A DNA stretch of 64,000 bases from Calothrix sp. C42_A2020_038 (lineage in GTDB: Bacteria > Cyanobacteriota > Cyanobacteriia > Cyanobacteriales > Nostocaceae), in the NCBI GenBank assembly GCA_015272395.1, contig JACYLQ010000019.1, positions 1 through 64,000 of the forward strand, in the 5' to 3' direction. This document shows positions 1-64,000 of this stretch, in pieces (positions within the stretch are counted from its first letter, which is position 1; each line of letters begins with the position of its first letter). Made by a program: the position numbers and the translations under genes. A model generated the notes under the pieces. The model was not told the origin of the DNA and did not search any database. It saw only the letters and a program-made list of their open reading frames with translations.

Positions 1-1
1 A

Positions 2-29
2 CCCTACCTAAACTTCGTTATAGGTAGGG
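2..29. terminator. Inverted repeat, terminator-like
   Basis: CCCTACCTA at the left edge pairs with TAGGTAGGG across a ten-base AT-rich loop. It lies just before the first glycosyltransferase gene, so it may end a transcript from outside the window. There is no strong T-tract, so it could equally be one of the dispersed hairpins of this genome. Confidence 0.4.
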
Positions 30-101
30 ACTGCGCTCAACATTTTTGTTCAAAACGAGAATTGGGCATACTAGAATTAGCAGAACTGATGCCTTGATTT
101 T

Positions 102-1079
102 ATGAGTGTTGACTTTACTGTTGCTATCCCTACTTATAATGGTGCCTGTCGTTTACCGAAGGTGCTAGAAAAGTTACAGATGCAAGTTGGTATTGAGCAT
201 CTGTCATGGGAAATAATCGTTGTTGACAACAACAGTACTGATGAGACCGCGAAGTTAGTTGAGGAATGTCAGGCTAATTGGCGCCACCCAGCAAAGTTGC
301 GTTATTGTGTGGAATTTGAACAGGGCGCCGCTTTTGCACGTCAGCGTGCGATTATGGAGGCGGAAGGTGAAATCGTTGGGTTTTTGGATGATGATAATTT
401 GCCTTATCCAACTTGGATTTTAGAGGCGTATAAATTTATTCAAGAGTATCCGCAGGTTGGGGCAATTGCTAGTCAAATTCACGGAGATTTTGAAGTTAAA
501 CCACCAGAGAATTTAAAACCATTGCTTTTCTACTTAGCTATTACGGAACGTGGTAGTGAACCTCACATGTTTGAACCACGCTACAATGGTTTTCCCCCAT
601 CTGCGGGTTTGGTTGTTCGTCGGAATGCATGGAAGGATAATGTACCTGCGAAGTTGTTTTTGGTTGGTCGAGTTGGTAATTCGATGATAGGTAGTGAAGA
701 TGCGGAGGCTTTATTTTATGTTCACAAAGCTGGTTGGGAAATTTGGTATAATCCAGCTATGGAAGTTGACCATGTTATCCCTGCTTGGCGCCTGGAGAGA
801 GATTACTTGGTTAGTTTGATGCGTGGAGTTGGGTTAGCGCGCTTTAGATTGCGAATGCTGCGACTCAAAGCTTGGCAAAGACCTTTTGCTTTTTTTGTGT
901 ACGTACTGAATGATTTTCGCAAATTGTTGGTGTATTTCATCCGTAATTATCAGGTGATAGAAAGTGATGTTTTAGTCGCTTGCGAGGTGGAAAGGTTAGT
1001 AGGAGCTTTGATTAGTCCATTTTATTTGATTAGGCTGAAATTTAATAAAAATGAACTTTTGTGCTTACATCACAGTTAA
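102..1079 (+). CDS. hpsE: HpsE-type family 2 glycosyltransferase (paralog 1)
   Basis: A 325-residue GT-A fold glycosyltransferase. The N-terminus carries the GT2 signature TVAIPTYNG (residues 6-14), then VVDNNSTDET (about 40-49) and the metal/nucleotide-sugar binding FLDDDN (DDD at 96-98). The C-terminal third holds basic and hydrophobic stretches that could contact the membrane. The same layout recurs in the genes at 10796 and 12826, so these are paralogs. The family is known from the hormogonium polysaccharide (hps) locus of Nostoc punctiforme, where such enzymes are thought to assemble the secreted glycan. Sugar donor and acceptor cannot be read from the sequence. The ATG start fits the family N-terminus. 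It lies about 2.3 kb upstream of hpsA, separated by a GT4 gene. Confidence 0.8.
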   Translation: MSVDFTVAIPTYNGACRLPKVLEKLQMQVGIEHLSWEIIVVDNNSTDETAKLVEECQANWRHPAKLRYCVEFEQGAAFARQRAIMEAEGEIVGFLDDDNLPYPTWILEAYKFIQEYPQVGAIASQIHGDFEVKPPENLKPLLFYLAITERGSEPHMFEPRYNGFPPSAGLVVRRNAWKDNVPAKLFLVGRVGNSMIGSEDAEALFYVHKAGWEIWYNPAMEVDHVIPAWRLERDYLVSLMRGVGLARFRLRMLRLKAWQRPFAFFVYVLNDFRKLLVYFIRNYQVIESDVLVACEVERLVGALISPFYLIRLKFNKNELLCLHHS

Positions 1080-1480
1080 TTTACCTAATATACTGATGAT
1101 TATAGTACATATAACCACTTTATAGAAATGGACAGCCTAATGTTTCTAACTATACTTGGTCAAAGATATGACTTTTCATCTCATGTGGAAAACGTTACGT
1201 AAAACCTAGCTCCCCAATAGAGTTTCCCATGAAATATAGTACAAATGCACCCATCTCCTTGTAGGAGCGCAAAGTGGGTGGTGTCGGTTTCCGTCCCGCC
1301 CAACTTTGTAAGAGAGAGGGGTTGGAGGAGAGGTTTTTAGGATACCGTGAAAAGTCAGGATCATTAAGATGGCGCCATAAAAGACAAGATAGTGATTTAA
1401 GCACAGTAACAGGGAACTATAGAAATATAGCCTATAGCTTAATAGCTGTAAGCGAATTAACTATTACCCTGAACAGTATT
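1080..1480. other. Intergenic region upstream of the GT4 gene
   Basis: About 400 bases. An open frame runs through the second half in phase with the GT4 gene, but its translation is low-complexity and basic and does not resemble a GT4 N-terminus, so it is treated as non-coding. A GC-rich imperfect inverted segment (GTGGGTGG to CCCGCCC) lies around 1275-1305, and one GGCGCC site at 1371. No confident promoter was identified. Confidence 0.4.
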
Positions 1481-2857
1481 ATGAGAGTAATTCAAGCCCT
1501 GGCTCGTTATTTCCCAGATAAATGTGGAGGTATTCAAGTAAATTTAAGCGAGTTGATACCGCAGTTACAATATCAGAATGTTGAAATTAAAATAGCAGCA
1601 GCAAAGGTAGAAGTAGATAAGGAAAATACTTATCAGTTAAACGATGTTGAAGTATATCGATATCCTATATCTTCTAAACCAAAACCACAACCGAATCATG
1701 GACAGTTTGCTCATCAAGGCTTTAAATGTTTCGCAAAATGGCTATCTAGTCAGAAAGCTAACATATATCATCAGCACCACTGGGAAGTTACTTGTGGTTT
1801 ACCTCATTTACGGCTTGCCAAGCAATTAGGTATGAATACGATAGTGACAGTACACTATCCTATACCTATTTGCCAGCGAACTACTTTAATGTTTAACGGA
1901 CAAGAAGCTTGTGATGGCAAAATAGATATTATTCGTTGTTCACGCTGTACCGATGGTTTGAGCAAAAAGCTACCCAATCAAATACTTAAAAATTTAAGTA
2001 GGCTTCCTATCTCTGCTATAAGCCGGATTCCTCTACCTGTTAGTGCCTATCTTCCTACTTCAGTGAATGAGGCTAAAGGTCGATTTATTCGTCCTTTTGT
2101 TATACCCGCCTATGTTGCAGCACGCCAATATAGTCTACACGAAATGGTAAAATATGCTGACCGGATTATAGTTGTATGTGATTGGCTTTATAAATCTCTT
2201 TTAGTAAATGGAGTACCTGAAGAAAAACTTATTCTTTGTAGGTATGGTATTTCCTATGCGACTTCCAATCAATTCACCAATAATCAAAGCATACGTACTT
2301 CAAACAATAGTAAAGAACATGTTTTAAAAGTTGCTTATTTGGGACGATGGGACGTATCTAAAGGTATAGATATTTTAGTTCAAGCAGTTAAAAACTTACC
2401 CCCTGATATTAATATAAATTTAGTAATTCATGCCATTAATCAAGACGAACGGTATCGCAAAAATGTAATAGAAATAATTAATGATGACACTCGAATTCGC
2501 ATCTCAAAACAGTTGACGAGAGAAGAACTTCCATCAGTATTGGCAAGCTACGATTTACTTGCTGTGCCTTCTCAGTGGCTGGAAACAGGACCGCTAGTAG
2601 TTTTGGAAAGCCATAGCGTTGGTGTGCCTGTAATCGGTTCCAATTTAGGTGGTATATCTGAACTTGTTAGACATGGCGTTGATGGTTGGCTAGTGAGTGC
2701 CAATGACCCAAAAGCTTGGAGTCAGGCGTTAATGAAACTGGCTTGTGATACAGAACTATTGAAAAAATTACGCCAAGGAATTAAACCTGTTCGCACAATA
2801 ACTGAACAAGCAACAGAGTTAAAACAAATTTATCAAAATATTTATCAGCAGAGGTAA
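1481..2857 (+). CDS. Family 4 glycosyltransferase
   Basis: A GT-B fold glycosyltransferase of about 458 residues, counted from the ATG at 1481. The open frame extends upstream to 1274, but the true N-terminus is most likely MRVIQALARYFPDKCGG, which looks like the GT4 opening with its glycine-rich donor loop. The C-terminal domain shows VAYLGRWDVSKG, then VPSQWLETGPLVVLES and VPVIGSNLGGISELV, the usual GT4 nucleotide-sugar pocket with its two glutamates. It lies between an HpsE paralog and hpsA on the same strand, so a role in the same exopolysaccharide pathway is inferred from context. It could be the hpsF or hpsG counterpart, but I cannot tell which. No membrane segment is obvious. Confidence 0.75.
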   Translation: MRVIQALARYFPDKCGGIQVNLSELIPQLQYQNVEIKIAAAKVEVDKENTYQLNDVEVYRYPISSKPKPQPNHGQFAHQGFKCFAKWLSSQKANIYHQHHWEVTCGLPHLRLAKQLGMNTIVTVHYPIPICQRTTLMFNGQEACDGKIDIIRCSRCTDGLSKKLPNQILKNLSRLPISAISRIPLPVSAYLPTSVNEAKGRFIRPFVIPAYVAARQYSLHEMVKYADRIIVVCDWLYKSLLVNGVPEEKLILCRYGISYATSNQFTNNQSIRTSNNSKEHVLKVAYLGRWDVSKGIDILVQAVKNLPPDININLVIHAINQDERYRKNVIEIINDDTRIRISKQLTREELPSVLASYDLLAVPSQWLETGPLVVLESHSVGVPVIGSNLGGISELVRHGVDGWLVSANDPKAWSQALMKLACDTELLKKLRQGIKPVRTITEQATELKQIYQNIYQQR

Positions 2858-3366
2858 GAACTATTCTCTACAATACAGCTTTAGGCAGGCGCCATAATTA
2901 GTTTTCAGATCTTTCTAAGCATTACAGGTGCCCTACCTTGTCTACAATAACTGCCGTAGCGAGAATAATCATAATTATAGCATCTTCTCTATCTAGAATG
3001 ATTTTTCTTGCCAAATGATGTGTTTTTACTTTCCGGTGGGTAATATAAGTTTACTTTGACAGCTAATTATTTATAGAGGAGCCTTGCAAAATATTTATTT
3101 TTTACAAAGTTAATATAAAGTTATGGCGTTATTATTCTCTCTCGGCTATAAAATTATTAATACCGAACAAAATTTTCACTAACCGGAAGGTTGTTCATAA
3201 AATAAAAATTTTTAATTCTGTTTTCTATTGTTTTCAAAAAAAACACAAGCAGTGTTAAGAGTCTTGTTTGAATCAGCAAGTCTTGATTAGTCTGTTTGAT
3301 TGTTTAGCAGACATTACTGCATACTCAAAAAAAATCTGCATTTATCTACTGAACAGGAAAGGGGCT
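2858..3366. other. Long leader region upstream of hpsA
   Basis: About 500 AT-rich bases between the GT4 gene and hpsA. It contains one GGCGCC at 2889 and several A and T tracts. An open frame in phase with hpsA begins at a TTG at 3268, but the strong AGGAAAGGGG before 3367 argues for the later start. In Nostoc punctiforme hps genes are induced in hormogonia, so a regulated promoter is expected here. No defined site could be assigned. Confidence 0.4.
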
Positions 3367-6300
3367 ATGTCTCGAAATCGCAAGTCAGTCAGAACTATCC
3401 GGAAATATTATAAAATCTTTTATTCATCTATTGCAAAACTGAAAAAACTGCTATTGCTACTGTTGCAAAGCCTTTTTATCACGAGGAAAAAATCGAAGTC
3501 GGCAAATGCGGGTTTCGTTTTGCCTACGGTCGCAATGGTATCTATAGTAGTTATACTACTAACTGTAGCTATTGTATTTCGATCATTCGAGCGTTCTAAA
3601 ACTGCCAGTAATGTGAGGGTAAATCAAGCAGTTCTTCAAGCAGCAACTCCTGCAATCGATCGAGCTAGAGCAAAAATAAACAAGTTATTTCAAGATTCTG
3701 AATTACCACGAGCAACACCAACAGATGCAGCTTTAGAGGGCGCTTTAACAAATAGCACAAAGATAGATCAATATACATTCGGTGACGAAACTCAATTGAC
3801 AGTATCTTACAATGGCGATCAAATTAAGTCAGCATGGAGGTATCCTGTTGACACTGATAACAATGGTACATTTGATAGCTATACTTTGTATGGAATCTAT
3901 TTTAAAAATCCTCCTGTTCAAAATGGTCAATATACTCGTGGTCGAAGTCCTTTAGAAGCGCGAACACCACCGATGATTGGTGGTAATGTTAGTAAAAGTT
4001 GTGAAGATATAGTTGGCACAAGTGCTAGCTTAGTAGGCAGTACTGGTTGGTTCAATATTGGTGGCAAGTTGAAAAAAAGCTTTTATGTGTATACTGCTAC
4101 CGTTCCCATTACTAATCGCGAGGGATTAGGGACTAATTACGAAATTTATAAGGGTAATAAAGGGTTTTCTGCAATTGAGTACCAACAAGATCGTGTACAA
4201 CTTCCTCTAGTTAATAATGCTGTAGTTTATGAAGATGATATTGCATTAGCTCCTGGTACTAACATTAATTTGAATGGACGAATTATTACAAATAGTAATT
4301 TCATCACTGGTGGAGTAGGTAGTGCAACTGTAAAGCTATATCAGGTGAGCAGTAAAGATTCCTGTTTTTATGAAGATGATAACGCCAAAATAATAGTAGG
4401 TGGTAATTTAGGAGGTGGTGGTTTTACAGACGCTAGTGATTTAGGTGCTACTCAAGTGCATCTGTTCAGAGGTAAAGGAGTTGATCCAGATGAAAATGGT
4501 GTAAATAATATTAAGGATAATAAATCAGTTAACGCTGCACCAAGGGATATTGCATACAATAGTCTTGCTTATGTACAGCGCATCACTCGCTTAGTTAATG
4601 CCCAAATGGTCAACGCTGCTACTACTGACCCACAAGAAGTAAAAGATGGTATTACTAGAGAAAAAAATAAGCTTTCAGGTGTCACTCTAACAACAGAAGA
4701 TGAAGAGCGGATTCGCCAGCAGCAACTAGAGCGTTATTTTAGAAGGCGTACTCGTCGTGTACCTTATGCAGAAGTCCCCTTTAATGGTAACGCTTTAACA
4801 CCATATGAAACGACTAGTCCATTAGAAGGAAGCGGCGATTCGCTCCGACCAAAAGATCCTTGGGTCTTTCCCACCAACCCTGCTGATGGAAAAACAGTTG
4901 GGACTGCTTACACAAGACTGAATTTAAGGCTGGATGGCACAGATAAGCTTTTTCCGGGTGCAACTGAGCCAACAAAGCTGCAAAGAGAGTTAGAAGGTAA
5001 AGAGCAGTATGTAGGTGATAGAGCTTTAGTTGGTAATAATTTGCCTGAAGTTTGGTGGGATAGCAACAAGAGTAGGTTTGTAAGTACTGCTCCACAAGAT
5101 ACCCAAAACATAAACAATATTAAATGGAATGATGGTAACGGAACTCGCACACGTCGCACAAGAATAGAGCAATTAGCTGATTTAGGAGCTATCGAACGCG
5201 ATGGAAACTGGGAACTAGATGCAGCTAAAGTACCAGCAAACCCTCAAGACCCTGTAGGTGGTTTACGAGTAGTTACTGGCGCCGGAATTTATTTGCCAAG
5301 TTCATTGACATTAAGTAGCACTGCGGCAGAGTTTACGGCAGCACGAGCAGTTACAAACCGAATCTGGTCTGACATGATGCCTGTTCCGTCAGCGACAGCA
5401 GCAGTAAATGCTACTACTGTAGATACCAAGTATGGATATGTTGAATTTGCTCCTGCAACAGAAACAGATGCAACAAGAAGAGCAGAAATAGAAGGTAATA
5501 CGCCCTACCTGCGGATGCGAGCAACGGCTGTTTATCACTATAAAAACCCTAATGGTTACGTCGCAACAAATCCTACACCGATTGCGTGTGTAAGTAGCTA
5601 CTATGACCCAACAAACAGCACTTCAGCTAGAAATAGAACAGGTTTGCCAGATGTTAGTCTAAGGGATACTAACTTAGGAGCTAGTGCAAATCGAAATCTT
5701 ACAGGATTAGCTAACGTTAGTGCGAACCCAGGCAATTCTAACAATGGTGTTGTTTATGGACCACCGACAAGAAGTATCAGCGATTATCAAGCAGTTCTAA
5801 ATTATCAAGCTGAACTGAGATATCCGAATGGCCGCTGGGTAAATGAGCCACTCAGAAATGCACTTAACACAGCGGTTGCAAGTCGAACTCTTGCAGATAG
5901 GTCTGCTATTGACGCAGCTATTTGCTCTTTACAAATTCTAGACGGTAGTATAAGCCGCACCGATGCTGTGATTCCTCATGGTGCGATTATGGAAAAGTCT
6001 TTTCTCGATGCCAGACAGATTAAGGCAGTCCATAATGATGTAGGTTCATCAGCACCTGGCGTAGAAACATTTACGAATAGGGACGGTATCAATGGGGATG
6101 GAAGCGGGACAGTCGCAAATGTCCCAGATGCAGCAAACTACGATTTACCCATAGAGCAACGGCAACCACTTGAAATTCGTGCAACAGTTTTAGATATAGA
6201 CTTGCTGCGTCGTAAAACAATAGGCAACGCAACAAATGGACAAGAGTATTTAGTACCCAATAGCGGTATTATCTATGCAACTCGTGATGATGCGCTTCTA

Positions 6301-8028
6301 GATTTGAGTGCAGCTAAACCAACCACAGGTACAGATATCCAGAAAAGTGAAGCACAGAAGCGAGAAAGTCCTGTGGACTTCAAACTTGATCCAACTCGTC
6401 GTCCAAACGCCATCATGCTCATCAATGGTAGTAAAGTCTGGCGTGAGTTAAACTACAGAGACATTGAAAAAGGATTTATTCTAGCTTCAAACTTACCAGT
6501 TTACATCAAAGGAAATTTTAATCTTCATACTCAACAAGAGTTTACAACACCACTTGAAGATAATTGGAGTAACTTCTATAGTCGTGCAGCAAACAATCTT
6601 AATCCTCAATTCGCATGTCGTCCAAGTGATCCTAGATTACCTAAGTGTACAACTGGTGATGAATGGCGCCCTGCGAGTGTACTGTCAGATGCAATAACCT
6701 TACTTTCAAGTAATTTTAGAGAAGGATTTCGTAACGAAGGAGATTATGACCTAAATAATAATTTAGGAGATGGGCCATCAATTAATATGTTTAGGCAAAA
6801 TGGCTTTTTTAATAATGCTTACGTTACTAATTCTGCTTGGTACAAGCCAGACGGCTATCCTAGAGACTTGGATGGCGGTCTTGCAGGTGAGCAAGGTAGC
6901 TCTTACTTAAATAACTTTGTGACACCAGTTCAACGTCGGGCTGGTGATAGTGGGACTAATCGTTTTAATGAGTATTTAATGGAAGTTTGCCCTAAATTAC
7001 CCGTATCTTCGTGTACCACTGATGATTGGAAAGTTGACCCAAGTCAAGCAGCAACTGGAAATTCATGGAAAATTACTGGTGGTATTGTAGGTAAATCATT
7101 AAGTGACATTAAATCAGGTACTACAGCTAGTCCACCTGATGCTGCGTATCAAGGTTTTCCTCGTCGAGTAGCCTTTAAACGTGATAGTAATGGTACATTA
7201 GTTTTAAATGGTGGTTATCCGATTCCTCTGGGAATTGATAATGACGGTACTATACGAGAGTATCCTTACAACACTACCAGCTTTCCTAGATTAGTTAATA
7301 ATGCCTTATGGTTCAGAACAACCAGAGACCCTAATCCAACAATTGACAGCACACCTTCCGATGATCCCGCTTTTACTGGTACAGGTACTGATGCTAATCG
7401 TTTATTACTTGCTTCTTTGCCAGCAAACCCGACGGATAATCCAAGATTATTACCTGTTTTACAAATTAATAGACCTTTCGGTACTCCCGGCACTACAGAT
7501 AACAATTTTATGGGTCCTCCAAATAGTTCGACAGCTAATTGGTTGCAACCAGCTGTCGAGACTACATTTAATTTAGCTGCTGCTGCTGGAGATACCCCAG
7601 CTCGTCCCACAGAAGATAACGGTGGTTTGCATAACTTTGTACGCTTTTTAGAAAACTGGAACCCGACTGGTAATGTAAGTAACGCTATCAAGGCAAGAAT
7701 TAGTGGATCTTTGATTCAAATTAAGCGAAGTGCTTACGCAAGTGGACCATTTCGAGCGTTATTGGCAAATCGATATCAAATAGTAGGTAACGAAGGTAGA
7801 GCTCCTTTCTACATAGCTCCCGGAAGACAGTGGGGTTATGATGTAGGACTACTTTCTCAGGCGCCAGATTTATTTGCTCAAAAATTAGTCAAAATACCTG
7901 ATGATTTACCAGACGAGTTTTTCCGTGAAGTTGGTAGAGATGATCTCTGGGTAAAGACACTGCTGTGTGCAGAGTCCGGTGTACCCAACGCTGACTCAAA
8001 CCATCGTCCACAAAATTGTACACCCTAG
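3367..8028 (+). CDS. hpsA: Hormogonium polysaccharide biosynthesis protein HpsA
   Basis: A very large exported protein of about 1553 residues. The preferred start is the ATG at 3367, preceded by a strong purine-rich ribosome site; an upstream TTG at 3268 would add 33 residues. A basic N-terminus leads into a pilin-like hydrophobic helix (about 50-71, GFVLPTVAMVSIVV), then an amphipathic helix, then an extracellular region rich in Asn, Thr, Ser, Gly and Asp with scattered cysteines. This is the HpsA architecture: a type IV pilin-like anchor on a huge cyanobacteria-specific body. hpsA is required for hormogonium polysaccharide secretion and gliding in Nostoc punctiforme; its molecular role is unsettled. 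It heads a tight gene group: hpsB follows after about 40 bases. Confidence 0.88.
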   Translation: MSRNRKSVRTIRKYYKIFYSSIAKLKKLLLLLLQSLFITRKKSKSANAGFVLPTVAMVSIVVILLTVAIVFRSFERSKTASNVRVNQAVLQAATPAIDRARAKINKLFQDSELPRATPTDAALEGALTNSTKIDQYTFGDETQLTVSYNGDQIKSAWRYPVDTDNNGTFDSYTLYGIYFKNPPVQNGQYTRGRSPLEARTPPMIGGNVSKSCEDIVGTSASLVGSTGWFNIGGKLKKSFYVYTATVPITNREGLGTNYEIYKGNKGFSAIEYQQDRVQLPLVNNAVVYEDDIALAPGTNINLNGRIITNSNFITGGVGSATVKLYQVSSKDSCFYEDDNAKIIVGGNLGGGGFTDASDLGATQVHLFRGKGVDPDENGVNNIKDNKSVNAAPRDIAYNSLAYVQRITRLVNAQMVNAATTDPQEVKDGITREKNKLSGVTLTTEDEERIRQQQLERYFRRRTRRVPYAEVPFNGNALTPYETTSPLEGSGDSLRPKDPWVFPTNPADGKTVGTAYTRLNLRLDGTDKLFPGATEPTKLQRELEGKEQYVGDRALVGNNLPEVWWDSNKSRFVSTAPQDTQNINNIKWNDGNGTRTRRTRIEQLADLGAIERDGNWELDAAKVPANPQDPVGGLRVVTGAGIYLPSSLTLSSTAAEFTAARAVTNRIWSDMMPVPSATAAVNATTVDTKYGYVEFAPATETDATRRAEIEGNTPYLRMRATAVYHYKNPNGYVATNPTPIACVSSYYDPTNSTSARNRTGLPDVSLRDTNLGASANRNLTGLANVSANPGNSNNGVVYGPPTRSISDYQAVLNYQAELRYPNGRWVNEPLRNALNTAVASRTLADRSAIDAAICSLQILDGSISRTDAVIPHGAIMEKSFLDARQIKAVHNDVGSSAPGVETFTNRDGINGDGSGTVANVPDAANYDLPIEQRQPLEIRATVLDIDLLRRKTIGNATNGQEYLVPNSGIIYATRDDALLDLSAAKPTTGTDIQKSEAQKRESPVDFKLDPTRRPNAIMLINGSKVWRELNYRDIEKGFILASNLPVYIKGNFNLHTQQEFTTPLEDNWSNFYSRAANNLNPQFACRPSDPRLPKCTTGDEWRPASVLSDAITLLSSNFREGFRNEGDYDLNNNLGDGPSINMFRQNGFFNNAYVTNSAWYKPDGYPRDLDGGLAGEQGSSYLNNFVTPVQRRAGDSGTNRFNEYLMEVCPKLPVSSCTTDDWKVDPSQAATGNSWKITGGIVGKSLSDIKSGTTASPPDAAYQGFPRRVAFKRDSNGTLVLNGGYPIPLGIDNDGTIREYPYNTTSFPRLVNNALWFRTTRDPNPTIDSTPSDDPAFTGTGTDANRLLLASLPANPTDNPRLLPVLQINRPFGTPGTTDNNFMGPPNSSTANWLQPAVETTFNLAAAAGDTPARPTEDNGGLHNFVRFLENWNPTGNVSNAIKARISGSLIQIKRSAYASGPFRALLANRYQIVGNEGRAPFYIAPGRQWGYDVGLLSQAPDLFAQKLVKIPDDLPDEFFREVGRDDLWVKTLLCAESGVPNADSNHRPQNCTP

Positions 8029-8068
8029 TTAAATCTTAAAAAAGCAGGTTAATAATAGGTCAATAAAA

Positions 8069-8776
8069 ATGGTAAAACGCCAATACTTACAAAAAACCTT
8101 ATCTTCTAATGAGTCTGGTTTCACTATCATTGAGTCTTTAATAGCAATTATTATTGCTGCGATTTTGCTAGCTGCTACCGCACCTGTAATTGTTTTATCA
8201 ACAGCGACTCGAGTTCAAGCAAGACGAGTTGAACTAGCAACTCAAGCAGCTAAAACATTTGTTGACGCTGTTCAATCTCAAACAATATCCCTTAGTGGTA
8301 TTACAGCAATTAATTTGCCAGCGGCAACTAAAACTCAACCTAGGAACCTTTCAAACGTAACAAAACAAGCTGATTATTTGGTGAATACCACGAACATGCC
8401 TGTTCCATCTAATAAGAACAGTTTATATTGTTACCATAATGATGGAAAGCTCAAAACTCCTACAGATAGTGATTGTGATGCAGCTAATAATCAATTCTTT
8501 ATTCAAGCTGCAAAAATAAAAGTCCAAGATAGTAACCCAAATGAAGGTTACCGCTTGGCAATTAGAGTCTATCGCAAAGATGCTTTTGAAGGTTCTGAAC
8601 CATTACTTGCTAGTACCAGAACTCAAAATACAAAGCAGCGAACCTTTACTGGTGGATTAGGTCAAAAAAAGGCACCACTAGTAGAAACCACTATTGATAT
8701 ATCGACTAAAAACACTACATTTGAATCCTTATGTAGGCGCCTTGGAAGAAAAGAAGATAAGGATTGTAGTAGTTAA
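8069..8776 (+). CDS. hpsB: Hormogonium polysaccharide secretion pseudopilin HpsB
   Basis: A 235-residue type IV pilin-like protein. A short basic leader ends in the prepilin peptidase site G17/F18, followed by FTIIESLIAIII with the conserved glutamate at mature position 5 (E22). The globular part has a cysteine pair near residues 119 and 133 and two more near the C-terminus, likely disulfides outside the membrane. It lies 40 bases after hpsA and about 35 before hpsC, consistent with one operon. In the hps model the pseudopilins form, with type IV pilus or secretion parts, a piston for polysaccharide export. That role is from the literature on Nostoc punctiforme, not from this sequence. Confidence 0.85.
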   Translation: MVKRQYLQKTLSSNESGFTIIESLIAIIIAAILLAATAPVIVLSTATRVQARRVELATQAAKTFVDAVQSQTISLSGITAINLPAATKTQPRNLSNVTKQADYLVNTTNMPVPSNKNSLYCYHNDGKLKTPTDSDCDAANNQFFIQAAKIKVQDSNPNEGYRLAIRVYRKDAFEGSEPLLASTRTQNTKQRTFTGGLGQKKAPLVETTIDISTKNTTFESLCRRLGRKEDKDCSS

Positions 8777-8811
8777 AATTTTGTTTTTAGAACTAAATGG
8801 AAGAGCAAAGT

Positions 8812-9840
8812 ATGTTAAGTATACTCAAATATCTTCTCAGCAGCCAATTAATAAACTCTCAAAAAAATCAACGAGATAAGGGTTTTACTCTTATTGAACT
8901 ACAAGTAGCCGTGATTTTGGCTTTTCTTGTAATTACCCCGCTGCTGGGATTTATGATTAATATTTTGGATACTGATCGAAGAGAGCAAGCCAAGGCAACT
9001 TCTGAACAAGAAATTCAAACAGCAATAGATTACATATCTCGCGATTTGGAACAGGCAATATATGTTTATGATGCTGATGGATTAACTAGAAACTTTAATA
9101 GCAACCCTAGTCTTTCAGGAATTAAAGACCAAATACCACCAGCAAAGGAAGCTCCTGGCTGTAGGGATGCAAATGAATGCCAACCAATTCTTGTTTTCTG
9201 GAAGCGCAAGTTATTAGAAGATGCAATAACAGTTCCAAATAGTACTGCAACGGATAATTTAGACGATACTTTCGTTTATTCATTAGTTGCTTACTATTTG
9301 ATAAAAGATAGTAACACTACTTGGTCTAAAGCTGCTAGAATCGCTAGGTTTGAAATTAGTGATGGGGTACAAAGTCGTGATGGTATTAACTGCCCTGGTT
9401 ATCCTCTTGAAGAGAGATATATTAATGGTAGATGTCCTAACCCAGGATTTAAACGCTTTGACTTGACAAAAGTAGGCAACAATTTACGAGAAAAATTGAA
9501 TCAATGGGAAGCTGCGGGATCAAAGGAATCACCGTATACTCAAAGAGTTGATGTTTTAGTTGACTATATAGACCAAAGCATCACTAGTGTGCCTCCGGCG
9601 ACATGCCCAGCAAATACAAATGATACTACGTGGTCAATAGTTGCACCTACCAATATGACTGGTTTTTATGCCTGCGTTGAAACTCGGAAAACACTTAATT
9701 CTAGGGTACAAGTATTTTTAAGAGGTAATGCACTTGCTCGTGTACAAAGTAATAATCTTAATTACAGTGAAAATAATAAAACTTATTTTCCGAGCGCCAG
9801 TGTCCGGGTAGAAGGACGTAGTTATCTATTTACTCGGTGA
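8812..9840 (+). CDS. hpsC: Hormogonium polysaccharide secretion pseudopilin HpsC
   Basis: A pseudopilin of about 342 residues. The open frame begins at an ATG at 8797, but GGAAGAG at 8799-8805 is well placed as ribosome site for the in-frame ATG at 8812, which I prefer. The prepilin motif is DKG/FTLIELQVAVIL with cleavage after G24 and glutamate E29 at mature position 5. The mature protein is larger than normal minor pilins and resembles GspJ/PilW-type pseudopilins, with cysteine-containing loops in the second half. It follows hpsB by about 35 bases and precedes the third pseudopilin by about 38 bases. Confidence 0.83.
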   Translation: MLSILKYLLSSQLINSQKNQRDKGFTLIELQVAVILAFLVITPLLGFMINILDTDRREQAKATSEQEIQTAIDYISRDLEQAIYVYDADGLTRNFNSNPSLSGIKDQIPPAKEAPGCRDANECQPILVFWKRKLLEDAITVPNSTATDNLDDTFVYSLVAYYLIKDSNTTWSKAARIARFEISDGVQSRDGINCPGYPLEERYINGRCPNPGFKRFDLTKVGNNLREKLNQWEAAGSKESPYTQRVDVLVDYIDQSITSVPPATCPANTNDTTWSIVAPTNMTGFYACVETRKTLNSRVQVFLRGNALARVQSNNLNYSENNKTYFPSASVRVEGRSYLFTR

Positions 9841-9878
9841 ATACCAAAGAAATTAAGATTAATTAATAGTGAGGTATT

Positions 9879-10526
9879 ATGAGTAAATTGAGTGTTATCA
9901 TACAGCAATTTAGAAAGGGGTCTTTTGTTTCATATAAACAAAAGCAAGCGCATGAGGGTTTTACTCTTATAGAAATACTAGTTGTTGTAATTACTATTGG
10001 AATACTTGCTGCAATTGCTGGTCCTAGTTGGCTTGCCTTCACTAATAGACAGCGTGTAAATAAAGCTAATGATGCTGTTTTAGCAGCTATACAAGAAGCA
10101 CAAAGAGAAGCTAAAAAAACAAAGCTTAGTTACAGCGTTAGTTTTACAACTGATAATAATATTGCAAAAATAGCTGTTCACCCCAGTCGTTCTACTCCAG
10201 TATGGCGTAACCTTACTAGTGAAATAGGAGTCAAAGCTGAACAAGTAGTTCTTGGAACAAATATTTCTGCAAGGAATACAAAGCAAAGTTCAGTATCTTT
10301 TGGGACTCAAAGTAATGCAACAACACAGCAAGAAATTTCCTTTGATTATATGGGTGCTTTAGCCAAAAAAACTAATGGTAATAATGCTGATACACCCCTT
10401 ATTGTAACATTAGCTGTACCTCAAGCTAGTAATAATACACAAGCTAGCGAAGTAAAAAGGTGCGTGATTGTTGATACTTTACTTGGAGGTTTACGAACAG
10501 ATAAAGATGGAAAATGCCAAGAATAG
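9879..10526 (+). CDS. hpsD: Pseudopilin of the hps operon (HpsD, GspH/FimT type)
   Basis: A 215-residue minor pilin-like protein. A 27-residue leader ends in HEG/FTLIEILVVVITIGILAA with glutamate E32 at mature position 5. The mature domain begins with the GspH/FimT-type pattern APSWLAF-like (here AGPSWLAF) and an amphipathic helix rich in Ala, Asn and Gln. Two cysteines near the C-terminus may form a disulfide. It is the last gene before an inverted repeat at 10602, so it probably ends the hpsABCD transcript. A second, shorter copy of this family stands alone at 15686. The letter D rests on order in the operon as known from Nostoc punctiforme. Confidence 0.78.
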   Translation: MSKLSVIIQQFRKGSFVSYKQKQAHEGFTLIEILVVVITIGILAAIAGPSWLAFTNRQRVNKANDAVLAAIQEAQREAKKTKLSYSVSFTTDNNIAKIAVHPSRSTPVWRNLTSEIGVKAEQVVLGTNISARNTKQSSVSFGTQSNATTQQEISFDYMGALAKKTNGNNADTPLIVTLAVPQASNNTQASEVKRCVIVDTLLGGLRTDKDGKCQE

Positions 10527-10601
10527 ATAAATAGATACAAACTAAGAAAAATATAAGATTATATCTAAAATTTCCAACATTCAATAAAAATACTGAAGCG
10601 T

Positions 10602-10648
10602 AAACTGTACCAAGAGAGGAAACTTTAAGTATCGGGTACAGTTTTATT
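10602..10648 (+). terminator. Probable terminator of the hpsABCD operon
   Basis: AAACTGTACC at 10602-10611 pairs with GGTACAGTTT at 10635-10644 across a 23-base loop and is followed by a T-rich run (TTATTTTGG). It lies about 75 bases after the hpsD stop codon, well placed for ending the operon. Confidence 0.6.
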
Positions 10649-10795
10649 TTGGTGCAATCAAACTATAAACATTTATTGCTCGTACAGAATATTTATCTAA
10701 ACGTCACATATTTGTAGTATATCAATCTGTCAGTTGTACAAGTTCTATAATCAAACAATACTCATTTACATATTTAATTATTAATAAATTTTATT

Positions 10796-11773
10796 ATGTC
10801 TAAAGAACTTACTTTTTCGCTTGACATTACTGTCGCAATTCCTACTTATAATGGTGTAAGTCGTTTACCTAAGCTTATAGAAAGACTTTTAAATCAAACC
10901 GGAATTAAAAATATTAGTTGGGAAATAATTATTATTGATAACAATAGTAATGATAATACACATGAATTAATTAGTAAATATCAAGAGAAGTGGCATTACA
11001 ATTTTTCTTTAAGATACATTCTTGAACCAAAGCAGGGAGCTGCATTTGCAAGGTTGACTGCTGTTAATGAAGCAAAAGGACAGTTAGTTGCTTTCTTAGA
11101 CGATGATAACTTACCTGCACAAGATTGGCTCATACAAGCTTATAAATTTGCAGATTATTATCCACAAGCAGGTGCATGGAGTGGTCAAATTCATGGAGAT
11201 TACGAAGTTAAACCACCTGAACAATTTGAAAAAATTCAAGCTTTTCTTGCGATTAGAGAGCATGGAGATAAACCACTTTTGTTTGACGCTGATAATCTAA
11301 AATTACCTCCAGCCGCAGCACTTGTTGTCCGTAAACAAGTATGGTGCGATCATGTTCCATCCCAGCCGAAGCTAACCGGAAAATTGCCCGGATTACTTGT
11401 ACAGGGTGATGACTATGAACCATTGATTTACATTCACAATGCTGGTTGGCAAATTTGGTATAACCCTGACATGCATACATATCATCAAATACCAAAATGG
11501 CGATTTGAGTTAGATTATTTAAAATCTTTGGCTCGTGGTTGCGGTCTATGTATTTGTCAACTTCGTTTAATCCATGCTAATAAATTGCAACACCCATTTA
11601 TTATGATAAGAACATTTCTAGGTAATCTACGTAGATTAATACAACATTTGATTAAATACAGAAAACAACTTAAACACAACACTATTTTAATTTTTGAGAT
11701 GGAATTTTATTTGGGTAGTATGTTAAGCCCTATATATACACTGAAGCGTTATCATAAAAAAATGAATTTATAA
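10796..11773 (+). CDS. hpsE: HpsE-type family 2 glycosyltransferase (paralog 2)
   Basis: A 325-residue GT2 enzyme collinear with the proteins at 102 and 12826. It shows ITVAIPTYNG (11-20), IIIDNNSNDNT (about 45-55), QGAAFAR and FLDDDN (DDD at 102-104), then SGQIHGDYEVKPP and GWQIWYNPDM shared with the paralogs. Its DNA is more AT-rich and its sequence more diverged than the other two copies, which suggests an older duplication. It opens the unit downstream of the hpsABCD terminator, followed after about 50 bases by another GT2 gene. The expected role is sugar transfer at the cytoplasmic face during hormogonium polysaccharide assembly; donor and linkage are unknown. Confidence 0.82.
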   Translation: MSKELTFSLDITVAIPTYNGVSRLPKLIERLLNQTGIKNISWEIIIIDNNSNDNTHELISKYQEKWHYNFSLRYILEPKQGAAFARLTAVNEAKGQLVAFLDDDNLPAQDWLIQAYKFADYYPQAGAWSGQIHGDYEVKPPEQFEKIQAFLAIREHGDKPLLFDADNLKLPPAAALVVRKQVWCDHVPSQPKLTGKLPGLLVQGDDYEPLIYIHNAGWQIWYNPDMHTYHQIPKWRFELDYLKSLARGCGLCICQLRLIHANKLQHPFIMIRTFLGNLRRLIQHLIKYRKQLKHNTILIFEMEFYLGSMLSPIYTLKRYHKKMNL

Positions 11774-11822
11774 TTAAATAAAATTCAAGATTGAATTATT
11801 TTAATTTTTTGTACTTAAAATT

Positions 11823-12791
11823 ATGGATATACCGATTGTTTCTGTTATTATACCTACATATAACAGCGAAAAAACTATTAAAAAAACAATCCAATCAGTT
11901 TTAAATCAAACTTTTTGTAATTTTGAAATCATCATAATTAATGATGCTTCAACTGATTCAACTTTAGATATTATTTCTAAAATTAACGATTTCCGTATAA
12001 AACTATTTACATATTCAAAGGCTGGTGCAAATATTAGTCGTAATCGTGGACTATCTCATGCGATAGGAAAGTTTATTAGTTTTTTAGATGCGGATGATAT
12101 ATGGACTTGTCATAAGCTACAAAGCCAGGTAAAAGCTTTACAAGATAATCCGGAAGCGGCAGTTTGTTATAGTTGGACTGATTACATTGATGAGAATGAT
12201 AAATTTGTTGTTACAGGTACTCACATTACAGCTAATGGAAATGTTTATGATAAATTGTTACTAACAAATTTTTTGGAGAATGGCTCTAACCCATTAATTC
12301 GTAAAGAAGCTTTGATTGAATTAGGTGGGTTTGATGAATCTTTAAATGCGGGTCAGGATTGGGATATGTGGCTCAGATTAGCAGCTAAGTATAATTTTAT
12401 TGCTGTGCCAAAAGTACAGATATTATATCGAATCAGTTCTAATTCACTATCTTCTAATCTTGCAAGACAAGAAAAAGCTTGTTTGCAAGTACTTGAAAAA
12501 GCTTATCAGCTAAAATCCTCAGTAAACAAAAATAATTTCAGCATAAGTCTAGCAAATCTCTATAAATACTTAACTTGTAAAGCTTTACAAAAACCTTATA
12601 ATCGTCAAAAAGCTCTAGCAGCAGTGCGTTTCCTTTTCAATTATATTAGAAACGAACCTCAAAAAAGTCAGCGATTAAACTTTATTGTAAAACTTAGCTT
12701 AAAAATTGCAGTAATCCTACTTTTACCTATGTCTCTATCTACGCTTATGCTAGATAATGGGCAAGATAAAGATAAAATGCAAATATGCTAA
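11823..12791 (+). CDS. Family 2 glycosyltransferase
   Basis: A 322-residue GT-A enzyme of a different GT2 subgroup from its HpsE neighbours. It starts with VSVIIPTYNSEKTIK, has IIINDASTDST (about 37-47), the metal-binding LDADD (89-92) and GQDWDMWLRLA, the motif often following the acceptor-binding region in WcaA-type transferases. A hydrophobic segment near the C-terminus (about 295-317) may anchor it to the membrane. It lies between two hpsE-type genes with short gaps on the same strand, so it likely works in the same glycan pathway and may be the local HpsF or HpsG. Its substrate cannot be told. Confidence 0.75.
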   Translation: MDIPIVSVIIPTYNSEKTIKKTIQSVLNQTFCNFEIIIINDASTDSTLDIISKINDFRIKLFTYSKAGANISRNRGLSHAIGKFISFLDADDIWTCHKLQSQVKALQDNPEAAVCYSWTDYIDENDKFVVTGTHITANGNVYDKLLLTNFLENGSNPLIRKEALIELGGFDESLNAGQDWDMWLRLAAKYNFIAVPKVQILYRISSNSLSSNLARQEKACLQVLEKAYQLKSSVNKNNFSISLANLYKYLTCKALQKPYNRQKALAAVRFLFNYIRNEPQKSQRLNFIVKLSLKIAVILLLPMSLSTLMLDNGQDKDKMQIC

Positions 12792-12825
12792 ATATTTATA
12801 TTCATATTCTGAAATATTTAAAAAT

Positions 12826-13782: not shown

Positions 13783-13962
13783 ACCTTTAGGACTAATTCC
13801 CTAACCCCGCGCTTCTCTCCGTCCACCGGAGTGGTTCTCCAACCTAGATAGTCTTAATATTTACTTTATAAATCAACTCTAATGATTATAAGACAAACTT
13901 TATAGGATAGTTTATTGTGTTAAAATCTATAGTGATATTATAGATCAAAAGTAATTTTATAT

Positions 13963-14816: not shown

Positions 14817-14944
14817 CAGTCCTATATGATTTGTGAAAAAACGATTTGATAACTATATGTCTGTATTTGTATCAAGGTTTTTGCGAAAAGGTATAATAAG
14901 TCGGGAATCTGAACTTTGATTACGTTATAATACGGAGATAAATT

Positions 14945-16216: not shown

Positions 16217-16277
16217 GGTGTAATATTTTGTGGGTTGGGTGTTGTGTTCAACCCAACCTACAAACTCATCACTTTTT

Positions 16278-16934: not shown

Positions 16935-17122
16935 GACTCGGTTTTTTCTGAGGACACTCTAAAAAGCAGATGTTACTGTAGTGTAATTCTCAAATGAAGA
17001 GTAAAAAATTATTACTATCTATAAATTTGTTACCGTGATTGCAAAGAACAGATAAGTTTAGGGGAACAATATTCCAGTAACTTTGAAGTATAGCAATCAC
17101 TTGTATTACCCAACGAGAACTT

Positions 17123-17962: not shown

Positions 17963-17978
17963 GATACCTAACCCCCAA

Positions 17979-18003: not shown

Positions 18004-18094
18004 AGTACACAGTCTCTCACAAGGGGGAATTGTCAAGAATTTCAAAAACAAGTAATATTTGATACAATAAACTAAATATTCCTCGCATTCAATA

Positions 18095-20264: not shown

Positions 20265-20290
20265 AGACATTTAAAGTAAATTTAAAATTT

Positions 20291-60718: not shown

Positions 60719-63382
60719 CTACTTCACGCTTAATTCCAAAATCTTCTTCTCCTCCTCCTTACTTATTACTCTTCCCTCATCTTCAAACCCACTAATTTGG
60801 TCAAAGTTCAAGTACCGATACAAATTATCTGCAAACGGTTGAATCTTAGTGCCTACAATATCTAAATACTCCTGCACAGTAGGTATCCTCCCCAATAAAG
60901 CGCATACAGCAGCTAACTCTGCAGAACCTAAATAAACCTGAGCGTCTTTACCCATACGGTTATTAAAGTTTCTCGTGGAAGTAGAAAACACCGTTGTACC
61001 ATCTTCAACGCGCGCTTGGTTTCCCATACACAAACTACAACCTGGCATTTCTGTCCGCGCGTTTGCCCCAACAAACACATCATAAACGCCTTCTTTCTTC
61101 AACTGGGTTTCGTCCATGCGAGTTGGAGGCGCCACCCACAACCGCGCGCTCACCTTTCCGGCGCCTTCTAACACCTTTGCTGTTGCTCGATAATGCCCAA
61201 TATTGGTCATACAAGAACCGACGAACACTTCTTGTACAGGGTCACCAGCAACTTCTGATAGTAATTTAACGTTATCTGGGTCATTTGGCGCCGCTACAAT
61301 TGGTTCTTTAATTTCGTTCAAGTCTATTTCGATAATTTCCGCATATTCCGCATCTGGATCTGCTTCCATTAATATCGGGTTTGCTAACCATTGTTCCATC
61401 TTGGCAACACGACGCATAATGGTTCTTGCATCACCATAACCGCGCGCTACCATGTTTTTGAGCAGTGCCACGTTCGAGCGGATATATTCGGAAACTGTTT
61501 CTACGCTGAGTTTGATTGTACAACCAGCACAAGAACGTTCGGCAGAGGCATCGGTAAGTTCAAACGCTTGCTCAACTTTTAAATCTGGCAAACCTTCGAT
61601 TTCTAATATCTTTCCAGCGTAAATGTTTTTCTTGTTCTTTTTCTCGACTGTTAGTAAACCTTTTTGAATCGCTACGTAGGGAATCGCATTTACAATATCA
61701 CGTAGTGTAACACCTGGTTGTAATTCTCCTTTGAAGCGTACCAATACAGACTCTGGCATGTCTAAAGGCATTACACCCAAAGCTGCTGCAAATGCAACTA
61801 ACCCAGAACCTGCGGGAAAAGAAATACCGAGAGGGAAACGTGTATGGGAGTCTCCACCTGTTCCTACAGTATCAGGTAGTAACATCCGGTTTAACCATGA
61901 GTGGATAATACCATCACCAGGACGTAATGCAATACCACCACGTTGAGCGAAAAAGTCGGGTAGTTCTTTATGGGTTTTGATATCTACTGGTTTCGGATAT
62001 GCAGCAGTGTGGCAAAAACTTTGCATTACTAAGTCTGCACTAAAACCTAAACATGCGAGTTCTTTAAGTTCATCGCGCGTCATTGGTCCTGTAGTATCTT
62101 GGGAACCAACGGTGGTCATGATCGGTTCACATGATGTACCTGGACGAACTCCAGGTAAACCACAAGCTTTACCTACCATTTTTTGCGCTAGTGTGTAACC
62201 TACCCCCCCTTTAGTCTTTGAAGGGGGGGAAACAGGGGGGGTCGGACGGGTGAATACTGTACTTGCTTCCAAACCTAAAGCTACGCGCGTTTTGTCTGTG
62301 AGGGTACGTCCAATAAGTAAGGGAATACGTCCACCCGCACGGACTTCATCTAAAATAGTGTCGGGTTTTAATTGGAATGTGGAAATAACTTCTCCATCTT
62401 CGTTGGTAATTTCTCCTTTATAAGGATATATAGTGATTACCATCCCCGTTTCCATCTTTGTGACATCACACTGAATAGGTAAGGCGCCTGCATCTTCGGC
62501 AGTATTAAAGAAAATAGGGGCAATAGTTCCACCAAGTATATACCCACCAGCCCGCTTGTTAGGAACAAAAGGAATATCTTGACCAATATGCCATAATACC
62601 GAGTTAATAGCTGACTTACGTGAAGAACCTGTACCGACTACATCTCCAACATAAGCAATAGGATGTCCCTTTTTCTTTAATTCGGCAATAGTTTCTAAAC
62701 TTTTTGGTTGCCGAGTTTCCAACATTGCAAGTGCATGTAAAGGAATATCAGGACGAGTTGTTGCGTGTTGTGCTGGTGATAAATCATCTGTATTGGTTTC
62801 ACCAGGTACTTTAAAGACAGTGACGTTAATAAATTCTGGTAACTGCGTGCGGGTCGTAAACCATTCTGCTTCTGCCCATGAGTCAACAACTCGCTTTGCA
62901 AAAGGGTTTGTCTTAGATAATTCTAAAACATCATGAAAAGCATCATATACGAGCAAGATTTTACTCAAAGCTGCTGCTGCACATGCAGCTATTGGTTCCT
63001 TACCTTGTCCCCCCATTACTAATGGAGTTTCCGAAGAGGTAGATACTGAAAGGGTAGGCAATTGTAATAAGTCTATGAGTGATTGGACATTATAACCGCC
63101 CATCATTGTACCCAATAACTCAACCGCTTCTATCGGAGAAACCAAAGGGCTAGTGATTTCTTCTTTTGCTATTCCTGTTAAGAAACCTGCTTTAACATAA
63201 GCAGCAGAGTCAACACCAGGTGGTACTCTGTCACGTAATAAATGCAGTAATGTCTGTCCCTCACCCGCTGGTGGATTTTTCAGTAGTTCGCACAGTTCAG
63301 ATGTTTGTTTTGCATCTAATGGCAGCGGTGGAATTCCTAGTGCTGCTCTTTCTTCAAGGTGTTTGCGGTATGATTCCAGCAT
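60719..63382 (-). CDS. acnB: Aconitate hydratase B
   Basis: An 887-residue aconitase of the AcnB type. The ATG at 63382 has AGGAGAG seven bases before it. HEAT-like N-terminal and the swivel domain come first, then the catalytic part with iron-sulfur cysteines: [21 protein letters not shown] and [10 protein letters not shown]. It isomerises citrate to isocitrate through cis-aconitate in the TCA path. Between the swivel and the catalytic part lies an odd insert [18 protein letters not shown], coded by a C/G-run repeat at 62201-62241; the flanking linker normally is shorter. The frame is intact, so the enzyme is probably active. Confidence 0.95.
62201..62241 (-). repeat. Dispersed C/G-run repeat inside acnB
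   Basis: On the plus strand TACCCCCCCTTTAGTC is followed by GAAGGGGGGGAAACAGG, the known intergenic cyanobacterial C-run/G-run element. Read on the minus strand it codes for a Pro/Ser/Gly-rich linker. Intergenic relatives occur at 17979, 27571, 32802 and 60681. Confidence 0.8.
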
Positions 63383-63632
63383 TCTGCTCTCCTAGTATCA
63401 ATCCAACTTCTTCGCACTTCGGTGCTACAATTACTCGCGCGTTTCACTCTTTTTAAGTGTTTCTAAGCTCATAGCTTATAATAATTACTGTATCGCCAAT
63501 AATTGCTAAGGATAAAGGTGATTTATCCAGATTCCTAAGTTAGTGTAAAATATAGCTACAAATTTGGTTTAAGATAATTTTTTCAGTTAAAATATTGATT
63601 TTGTCTGTTGCACCGCTATAATCAGTTTCAAT

Positions 63633-63950
63633 ATGACACAAATATATACCGTTGAACTCAACCATCAGGGTAAAACTCTCACGATTCAAGTTCCCGAAAA
63701 CGAAACAGTATTAGCAGTAGCAGAAAAAGCTGGTTTAGAACTGCCCGCATCATGTCACGCAGGTGTTTGCACTACATGTGCAGCAAAAATTACCAACGGT
63801 GGAACAGTAGACCAAAGCGAAGGTATGGGTATAAGTCCTGACTTACAAAAAGATGGTTATGCACTGCTTTGCGTTTCATATCCACGCTCTGATTTGAAAA
63901 TAATAACCGACCAGGAAGAAGTTGTGTATCAACAACAATTTGGAAAATAA
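63633..63950 (+). CDS. Plant-type [2Fe-2S] ferredoxin
   Basis: A 105-residue ferredoxin. The cluster is held by CHAGVCTTC (C x4 C x2 C at about 42-50) and the fourth cysteine in ALLCVSYPRSD near 80. The beta-grasp start YTVELNHQGKTLTIQV and the end ITDQEEVVYQQQFGK fit. It is not the standard photosynthetic PetF, whose loop reads CRAGACSTC, so it is one of the minor ferredoxins serving other electron-transfer steps. It diverges from acnB with about 250 bases between them, which should hold both promoters. Its specific partner cannot be read. Confidence 0.9.
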   Translation: MTQIYTVELNHQGKTLTIQVPENETVLAVAEKAGLELPASCHAGVCTTCAAKITNGGTVDQSEGMGISPDLQKDGYALLCVSYPRSDLKIITDQEEVVYQQQFGK

Positions 63951-64000
63951 CCTTGGCAACGGATGATAAATGGATATGAGGCAACAAATCTATTTGTCAA

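Follow-up and report, generated by a model that had tools for sequence, protein, structure and literature searches.

In the genus to which the DNA analysed here belongs, the palindrome GGCGCC stands where relatives have the highly iterated palindrome HIP1 (GCGATCGC), and it does so in all seven genomes. We give about even weight to the reading that GGCGCC is a genome-wide mark which took the place of HIP1 in the stem lineage of this Calothrix/Dulcicalothrix-type genus, is methylated by an orphan enzyme and is kept by selection.

GGCGCC in the window, the genome and the genus

The window, i.e. the whole stretch of 64,000 bases that was analysed (1–64000), contains exactly 85 copies of GGCGCC, all of which were located; this is about one per 750 bases at a GC content of 39.3%, whereas the number calculated from the base composition of the window is about 3.7. 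HIP1 was not found in the 64 kb. The first-pass annotation had arrived at the same picture by hand count (about 85 copies, near four expected and no HIP1), and the genes it had named as examples indeed carry the motif: ftsY (21077–22690, SRP54 GTPase domain) has five sites, starting at 21735, 22106, 22178, 22229 and 22616 (the last ending at 22621), the MBOAT gene (39419–40924, MBOAT domain) has six between 39699 and 40887, and two psbA-type genes with a Photo_RC domain have one (41268–42416, site at 41716–41721) and four (42926–44008, sites between 43308 and 43992), respectively. Four sites lie between 32970 and 35512 in the PEP carboxylase gene (32922–36038, minus strand, PEPcase domain), and six lie between 44422 and 47371 in the ORF at 44302–47487. 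The motif occurs in both genes and spacers, as had been claimed, but the ORFs are the denser of the two (1.54 per kb vs 0.47 per kb outside), and the added remark that it occurs on both strands is meaningless for a palindrome. The gaps between sites look random, with a coefficient of variation (CV) of about 1, on which ground regular spacing was rejected.

The whole genome contains 7475 copies of GGCGCC (1145 per Mb) and 147 of HIP1, which is rare rather than absent. Neither background-level GGCGCC nor abundant HIP1 outside the window was encountered, these being the two outcomes that the annotation had set against its own proposal. GGCGCC was also the top-enriched 6-mer in 400 kb from two other contigs (467 copies vs 22.6 expected), a sample that gives a base expectation of about 57 per Mb. 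The reversed control CCGCGG has 2 copies genome-wide vs 7475, a control that is itself biased because the same genome holds an ORF for an Eco29kI-type endonuclease, the site of which we take to be CCGCGG, adjoining a C5 methyltransferase. The maximal-order Markov expectation for the window (44.65) was not used, since GGCGCC itself fills its own sub-words.

The seven genomes of the genus, which include PCC 7103 (G115), Dulcicalothrix desertica PCC 7102, PCC 7716, NIES-4105 and HK-06, all have GGCGCC at 1145–1711 per Mb, or about one per 600–900 bases, and HIP1 is low in each of them (31–163 per genome). In the remaining 185 genomes of the family GGCGCC never exceeds 111 per Mb, and the swap was seen in none. 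For the PEP carboxylase gene, each of the other six genomes in the genus has DNA matches whose order is syntenic. For the sister comparison, which covers two stretches of 20 kb and 11 kb, we used G095, the nearest genome outside the genus as judged by PEP carboxylase (86%); its matching 20 kb contain 17 HIP1 and 0 GGCGCC. A conversion of HIP1 sites into GGCGCC was rejected, as 0 of 52 aligned GGCGCC overlap a HIP1 of G095, which is a weak test given only 10 HIP1 in the genes concerned.

At the level of the phylum, GGCGCC was compared with the reversed control in 386 genomes. Many genomes with high counts are also high in the control, such as G207 (12912 vs 9210), and G237 has 6677 vs 1346. Three outliers were sampled, G207-like genomes and G237 being left aside. 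G526 has 66% GC with GGCGCC at expectation (40 kb), and G395 has both HIP1 and GGCGCC at a modest level (139 kb). G259 (54% GC) has a repeat of the CGGCGCCG/CAGCGCCG type and a HindV-like methyltransferase the available flank of which lacks endonuclease-like sequence, and is possibly a parallel case with a different motif. In the low-HIP1 genome G022, no substitute palindrome stood out in 100 kb from five contigs, the top 8-mers being filled by a CRISPR-like repeat.

A candidate orphan methyltransferase

A HindV-like m5C methyltransferase (L003) is present in all seven genomes of the genus, in one of them as a split and a divergent copy. L003 has a C5 methyltransferase domain (PF00145, 225 bits) and shares about 56% identity with a plasmid-borne gene annotated as hindVM. 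The motifs PPCQ, ENV, QxRxR and GNAV are present in the alignment of the seven copies, of which that from G076 is altered beside PPCQ and in GNAV. HindV-type enzymes presumably recognise GRCGYC, and the homology suggests that the candidate likely acts on GGCGCC. The methyltransferase for GGCGCC that the annotation had envisaged thus has an orphan candidate, but its nearest named relative is of HindV type and not a strict GGCGCC enzyme. Further HindV-like copies in five of the seven genomes leave some doubt about which gene is responsible. The search was confined to C5 methyltransferases. Another methyltransferase found in all seven genomes, L006, was rejected as the GGCGCC enzyme: in G000 it adjoins an endonuclease of the Cfr10I/Bse634I type, the site of which we take to be RCCGGY, and RCCGGY is depleted there.

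The likeness to the HindV system (M.HindV / RE_HindVP) ends with the endonuclease, as no HindV-like endonuclease gene (PF09519) was found in any of the seven genomes, whereas other Nostocaceae have methyltransferase and endonuclease side by side. Fifty-two genomes of the family outside the genus also carry the methyltransferase, and 38 of these have an endonuclease-like sequence as well and avoid GGCGCC (median 0.7 per Mb). The remaining 14 have the methyltransferase, in some cases as broken copies, without endonuclease-like sequence, and reach at most 43 GGCGCC per Mb; possession of such an orphan is therefore not sufficient.

Conservation, site loss and competing explanations

Between close species, bases 1, 2, 5 and 6 of GGCGCC vary 3–4 times less than those of control hexamers. 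The outer bases had changed in 15 of 764 cases, compared to 865 of 12,024 in other G/C-rich hexamers (p = 3e-10), and the flanking bases are at background from distance 1. Where the amino acids were unchanged, 384 of 512 sites were kept in ordered-pair comparisons (four-fold identity 0.555), while other Gly-Ala hexamers were kept in only 74 of 196 cases. Similarly, the third base of the alanine codon GCC underwent synonymous change in 6 of 364 cases inside the motif vs 59 of 698 outside (p = 3e-6).

With regard to turnover, 50 recent losses stand against 12 gains, a surplus that may mean the sites are out of equilibrium. The majority of the losses (35 of 50) are C-to-T changes at the central CpG, with GGTGCC/GGCACC as the partner, and the same partner was the source of 4 of 8 resolved gains, four more being mixed. 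Central C>T/G>A changes were found in 40 of 382 cases in the motif vs 395 of 5772 in other xxCGxx hexamers (p = 0.01), whereas other central changes were scarce (2 of 382 vs 181 of 5772, p = 0.001). A bias of this kind is as expected if the inner cytosine is methylated. In absolute terms, however, GGC-to-GGT shows no rise inside the motif (21 of 340 vs 27 of 466 GGC codons outside), by which an absolute C-to-T rise over matched codons was rejected; methylation can be concluded only on condition that this base, too, is under the constraint. In a 26-kb codon set, C3-to-T was lower inside GGCGCC than in GGC codons with a following base other than G, and this held for each of the three distance classes. 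Taken together, losses and conservation are better accounted for by selection on a methylated mark than by a repair bias of a general kind.

Such a bias is the core of the ratchet that Elhai (2015, PMC4390886) proposed for GGCGCC in PCC 7103 itself, where mismatch repair directed by G-m5C keeps GGCGCC-creating mutations and the motif is a by-product without selected function. We consider it unlikely. In its favour, the density is close to the one per kb that it predicts, an orphan GRCGYC-type methyltransferase is present in the genus, other GRCGYC forms are depleted and the resident plasmids are likewise rich in GGCGCC. The depletion of GACGCC/GGCGTC is, however, also seen in four of four sampled genomes outside the genus, and GACGCC depletion was therefore rejected as proof. 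Repair that spans about 1 kb (Elhai 2015, PMC4390886) should not shield six bases while the next one is at background. Nor does the recent surplus of losses resemble a one-way gain.

A Vsr-like repair restoring GGCGCC from the T:G mismatch in GGTGCC, as very short patch repair does for Dcm sites in E. coli, would agree with the main partner in losses and resolved gains. We regard it as improbable, because it would not protect bases 1, 2, 5 and 6, and the canonical form was rejected, the Pfam Vsr domain (PF03852) being found in none of the seven genomes and in 1 of 192 of the family. We think equally little of preferential import, by uptake or recombination, of GGCGCC-bearing DNA that restores mutated sites. 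This would yield motif-limited conservation and a pool of one-off variants, but it explains neither the methyltransferase nor the C-to-T bias at the centre of the site; moreover, the uptake sequences known to us are longer, and we know of no uptake preference in these cyanobacteria. A passive relic, in which restriction avoidance was relaxed after loss of the endonuclease and the excess is drift, is consistent with the lack of this enzyme in the genus and with the avoidance of GGCGCC in the 38 genomes described above. It is nevertheless very improbable and was rejected as the sole explanation, as relaxation reaches at most the base expectation of about 57 per Mb and predicts no conservation. 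Finally, although Gly-Ala codon pairs (phase 0) make up about half or slightly more of the ORF sites in five stretches, neither the encoded proteins nor codon usage accounts for the excess, and ordinary composition has next to no probability: 20 synonymous-codon shuffles of the window ORFs gave 5.1 ± 2.3 copies (maximum 9) vs the actual 79, with a similar excess in four other stretches, the nearest genus has similar proteins with no GGCGCC in the aligned region, and non-coding density is also far above expectation.

A proposed exchange of HIP marks and its meaning

Under the favoured reading, selection on a methylated mark, a HindV-type restriction-modification system would have lost its endonuclease and its cytosine-5 methyltransferase persisted as an orphan; HIP1 would then have decayed as GGCGCC climbed to its present density, an order of events that we infer. 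The enzyme would now methylate the inner cytosine (GG-m5C-GCC), as the loss spectrum suggests, making C-to-T the main route of site loss, and selection on the exact six bases, to which the observed constraint points, would retain the sites. Our guess at the most likely role is chromosome organisation or strand recognition, as proposed for HIP1.

Like HIP1, GGCGCC is a GC-rich palindrome spread over the whole genome at about one per kb, present in genes and spacers and linked to orphan methyltransferases; its sequence differs, so that it is not HIP1 proper. Conservation of HIP1 has reportedly been ascribed to selection by Xu, Lawrence and Durand in 2018. As expected of an alternate HIP, GGCGCC is over-represented, lies within 1000–2000 per Mb and is accompanied by low HIP1 and, by homology only, a predicted site methyltransferase in all seven genomes. 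The annotation's interpretation as a whole is partly supported. The use of GGCGCC in place of HIP1 was already known, having been described for Calothrix PCC 7103 from one strain and 19 kb of Calothrix D253, with substitute HIPs considered sporadic and not persistent (Elhai 2015, PMC4390886). The hexamer, the low HIP1, the density and the GRCGYC-type methyltransferases agree with that case; unlike it, ours extends to all seven genomes of the genus, is conserved site by site and has a polarised spectrum of losses, and this genus-wide persistence is what is added. It removes a published argument for HIP1 as special, namely that alternate HIPs fail to last within clades.

HIP1 counts in cyanobacteria go back decades, yet to our knowledge its function has never been established. 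A swap that lasted while a whole genus diverged renders this question testable, since any process that depends on HIP1 in other lineages must in this genus either use GGCGCC or be dispensable. Somewhat more tentatively, we suggest that the whole genus has exchanged its HIP mark and now keeps GG-m5C-GCC by selection on the six bases, in which case HIP marks would be interchangeable functional landmarks that depend on the orphan methyltransferase a lineage happens to retain. If this is true, the exchange would amount to a natural experiment on the purpose of HIP1.

Abundance and distribution of GGCGCC

The first-pass annotation had put GGCGCC at about 85 copies in the 64 kb of the window and found no HIP1 there, and recounting gave exactly 85 and 0, at 39.3% GC. 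The same contrast holds for the genome as a whole (6.53 Mb, 50 contigs), which contains 7475 GGCGCC and 147 HIP1. GGCGCC headed the 6-mers by enrichment in a 400-kb sample of this genome taken from two further contigs (467 against 22.6 expected), and it occurs 79 times in the window's ORFs, against 5.1 ± 2.3 expected from 20 synonymous-codon shuffles. The gaps between sites looked random (CV 0.99–1.13 in five stretches). Plasmids of Calothrix NIES-4105 and PCC 7716 are also rich in the motif: three stretches of 50 kb gave counts of 71, 152 and 39 (2.0–2.7 expected in each).

We surveyed 192 genomes of the family, seven from the window's genus and 185 from 55 other genera. Besides the window's own genome (G000), the genus is represented by Calothrix PCC 7103 (G115), Dulcicalothrix desertica PCC 7102 (G127), Calothrix PCC 7716 (G138), Calothrix NIES-4105 (G101), Calothrix HK-06 (NIES-2101; G076) and Calothrix FI2-JRJ7 (G030, a MAG matched by position only). 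All seven hold 7475–20380 GGCGCC (1145–1711 per Mb), whereas the other 185 hold at most 1053 (at most 110.8 per Mb). HIP1 numbers 31–163 per genome in the genus; outside it, four of the 185 genomes have fewer than 1000 (G082 30, G022 535, G154 574 and G083 990) and the remainder 1117–8803.

Elhai (2015, PMC4390886) described GGCGCC as one of the alternate HIPs, present in Calothrix PCC 7103 as well as in 19 kb of sequence from Calothrix D253, and tied it to two GrCGyC-type methyltransferases, counted in PCC 7103. According to the same paper, exceptional HIPs 'occur sporadically, not in clades', a pattern that its author interprets as pointing to selection for HIP1. The presence of GGCGCC in all seven genomes contradicts that statement. 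Literature searches on HIP1, GGCGCC and Dulcicalothrix among open-licence papers turned up no other paper in which we recognised GGCGCC being described as a HIP. Selection for HIP1 has reportedly been put forward by Xu, Lawrence and Durand in 2018.

Conservation and loss of GGCGCC sites

To compare species, we aligned 23 ORFs of the window (26.5 kb) to the syntenic regions of the remaining six genus genomes and, where present, of G095 and G068 from another genus (g20), and scored sites only where the amino acids were unchanged. GGCGCC was kept more often than other Gly-Ala hexamers among the five close species (894/975 against 206/299; four-fold identity 0.889), against NIES-4105 (390/466 against 68/128; 0.676) and against G000 (384/512 against 74/196; 0.555), counts that are not independent because ordered pairs share sites. 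G095 keeps none of 169 GGCGCC sites but 23 of 64 control hexamers.

Losses were followed in the five close species, projected on D. desertica (134 kb to PCC 7103, 96 kb to PCC 7716, 31–39 kb to FI2-JRJ7 and HK-06), whose FastTree phylogeny is nearly star-like. Single-lineage events left 141 sites unchanged, with 50 losses and 12 gains; the set may thus be slowly shrinking, or some recent losses may not persist. GGTGCC or GGCACC, that is C3-to-T on either strand, accounted for 35 of the 50 losses. By position, the 191 sites showed 3, 3, 21, 21, 4 and 5 changes, or 1.6–2.6% outside the centre and 11% within it. The corresponding rates per position were 6.9–7.9% for 3006 G/C-rich hexamers conditioned in the same way, and 6% for hexamers of every kind. 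Outer-base changes numbered 15/764, against 865/12,024 in the G/C-rich controls, and codon-matched third-base changes in Ala GCC were 6/364 inside the motif and 59/698 outside.

G-m5C-directed mismatch repair has been proposed as the maker of GGCGCC (Elhai 2015, PMC4390886). If repair works over tracts of about 1 kb, however, neighbouring bases should be shielded too, and the flanks of GGCGCC are at the background level of change (8.9%) already at the adjacent base (13.5% at distance 1, 9.0% at distance 2). Selection acting on the sequence would be expected to protect these six bases alone, and the confined constraint fits selection better than such a tract.

The centre is the exception. Non-transition changes are as rare there as outer-base changes (2/382, against 181/5772 at other xxCGxx), whereas transitions are commoner than at other CpGs (40/382 against 395/5772). 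If the same constraint also covers the centre, its mutation rate would have to be raised several-fold, as m5C deamination would give, and the methyl group would then lie on the inner C. Elhai's model likewise requires inner-C methylation, and the paper remarks that no enzyme of that specificity was known to methylate there (PMC4390886). C-to-T change at GGC third positions was not higher in the motif (21/340) than in ordinary GGC codons (27/466), and was lower than at GGC codons not preceding G (0.073 against 0.199; close pairs, 26-kb set), so that methylation is something we infer rather than observe.

HindV-like methyltransferase and other restriction systems

For METHYLTRANSFERASE, nine PF00145 matches were obtained in G000, two being halves of one gene and one a fragment. 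The survey covered C5 enzymes (PF00145), of which two families, L006 and L003, were present in all seven genus genomes. L006 in G000 adjoins a Cfr10I/Bse634I-type endonuclease. The candidate L003 (G000:C32:50744-51724) encodes a protein of 327 aa. An E. coli plasmid carries a gene, annotated hindVM, to which L003 is about 56% identical; the site of HindV is GRCGYC. On our reading, the ORFs that flank L003 in G000 are a RuBisCO-like and a glycoside-hydrolase-like gene, one on each side. Genus copies share 82–90% protein identity with that of G000 and only 60–77% at four-fold sites, which points to a gene maintained as a protein. In HK-06, the copy most like those of the close relatives lies in two pieces, each at a contig end; another, which is more divergent (80%), is altered next to PPCQ and within GNAV. 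Extra L003-like copies at about 60% identity occur in five of the seven (G030, G076, G101, G115 and G138).

The HindV-like endonuclease (PF09519) was found in none of the seven, against 42 of the 192 family genomes overall, and L003 relatives in 52 of the 185 outside the genus. Median GGCGCC per Mb was 0.7 in 38 other genomes with methyltransferase and endonuclease-like sequence, 4.0 in 14 that have the methyltransferase (some copies broken) but lack endonuclease-like sequence, 1.2 in four with endonuclease-like sequence only, and 4.5 in 129 with neither. The pair is thus associated with GGCGCC avoidance, and an orphan methyltransferase is insufficient to make a HIP. Genus g22 (G021, G070, G096 and G112) agrees with the latter: it has the methyltransferase without endonuclease-like sequence, 20–43 GGCGCC/Mb and HIP1 in thousands.

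G000 also carries two complete-looking restriction systems, of Eco29kI type on contig C13 (L007) and of Cfr10I/Bse634I type on C43 (L006), whose sites are presumably CCGCGG and RCCGGY; in agreement with this, both CCGCGG (1 in 400 kb) and RCCGGY are strongly depleted. GATC (63) and GGCC (15) are well under expectation in the window, and in 400 kb of the genome they reach 0.28 and 0.21 times the expected counts, which suggests more restriction systems, present or past. A second palindrome, CGCGCG, is enriched in the genus, with 24 window sites (e.g. 31720, 43892 and 61009), 203 in 400 kb of G000 (nine times expected) and 41 in 60 kb of G101; it is also enriched in G127 and G115. Its turnover exceeds that of GGCGCC: 20 sites saw 9 losses, as opposed to 50 losses among 191 GGCGCC sites.

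A distant cyanobacterium, G259 (L277, L190-L193, L306-L312; 54% GC), has 2398 GGCGCC/Mb in 191 kb, 26 HIP1/Mb and a CGGCGCCG/CAGCGCCG-type repeat. Its HindV-like methyltransferase is 52.6% identical to L003, with no endonuclease-like sequence in the flank examined. Its congener G205 (L313-L316) showed no GGCGCC excess in 80 kb (12, 25.7 expected) and no HIP1 there; CCAGGGCC/AGGCCTGG-type 8-mers are enriched, possibly yet another alternate repeat.

Origin of the repeat

By PEP carboxylase the nearest genus is g20 (84–86%), with g49 also at 84%. All three g20 genomes have HIP1 in thousands and 4–5 GGCGCC each. The aligned sister sequence amounts to one 20-kb and one 11-kb stretch. G019 and G068 carry the HindV-like pair, the endonuclease of G019 appearing broken, and their methyltransferases are the closest to L003 outside the genus (73% identical), while neither gene was detected in G095 at the limits used. 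None of 52 GGCGCC sites overlapped a HIP1 site of G095, in genes that hold just 10 HIP1. The simplest order of events would begin with an ancestor having HIP1 together with the HindV pair; the endonuclease would then have been lost, and GGCGCC would finally have risen while HIP1 decayed.
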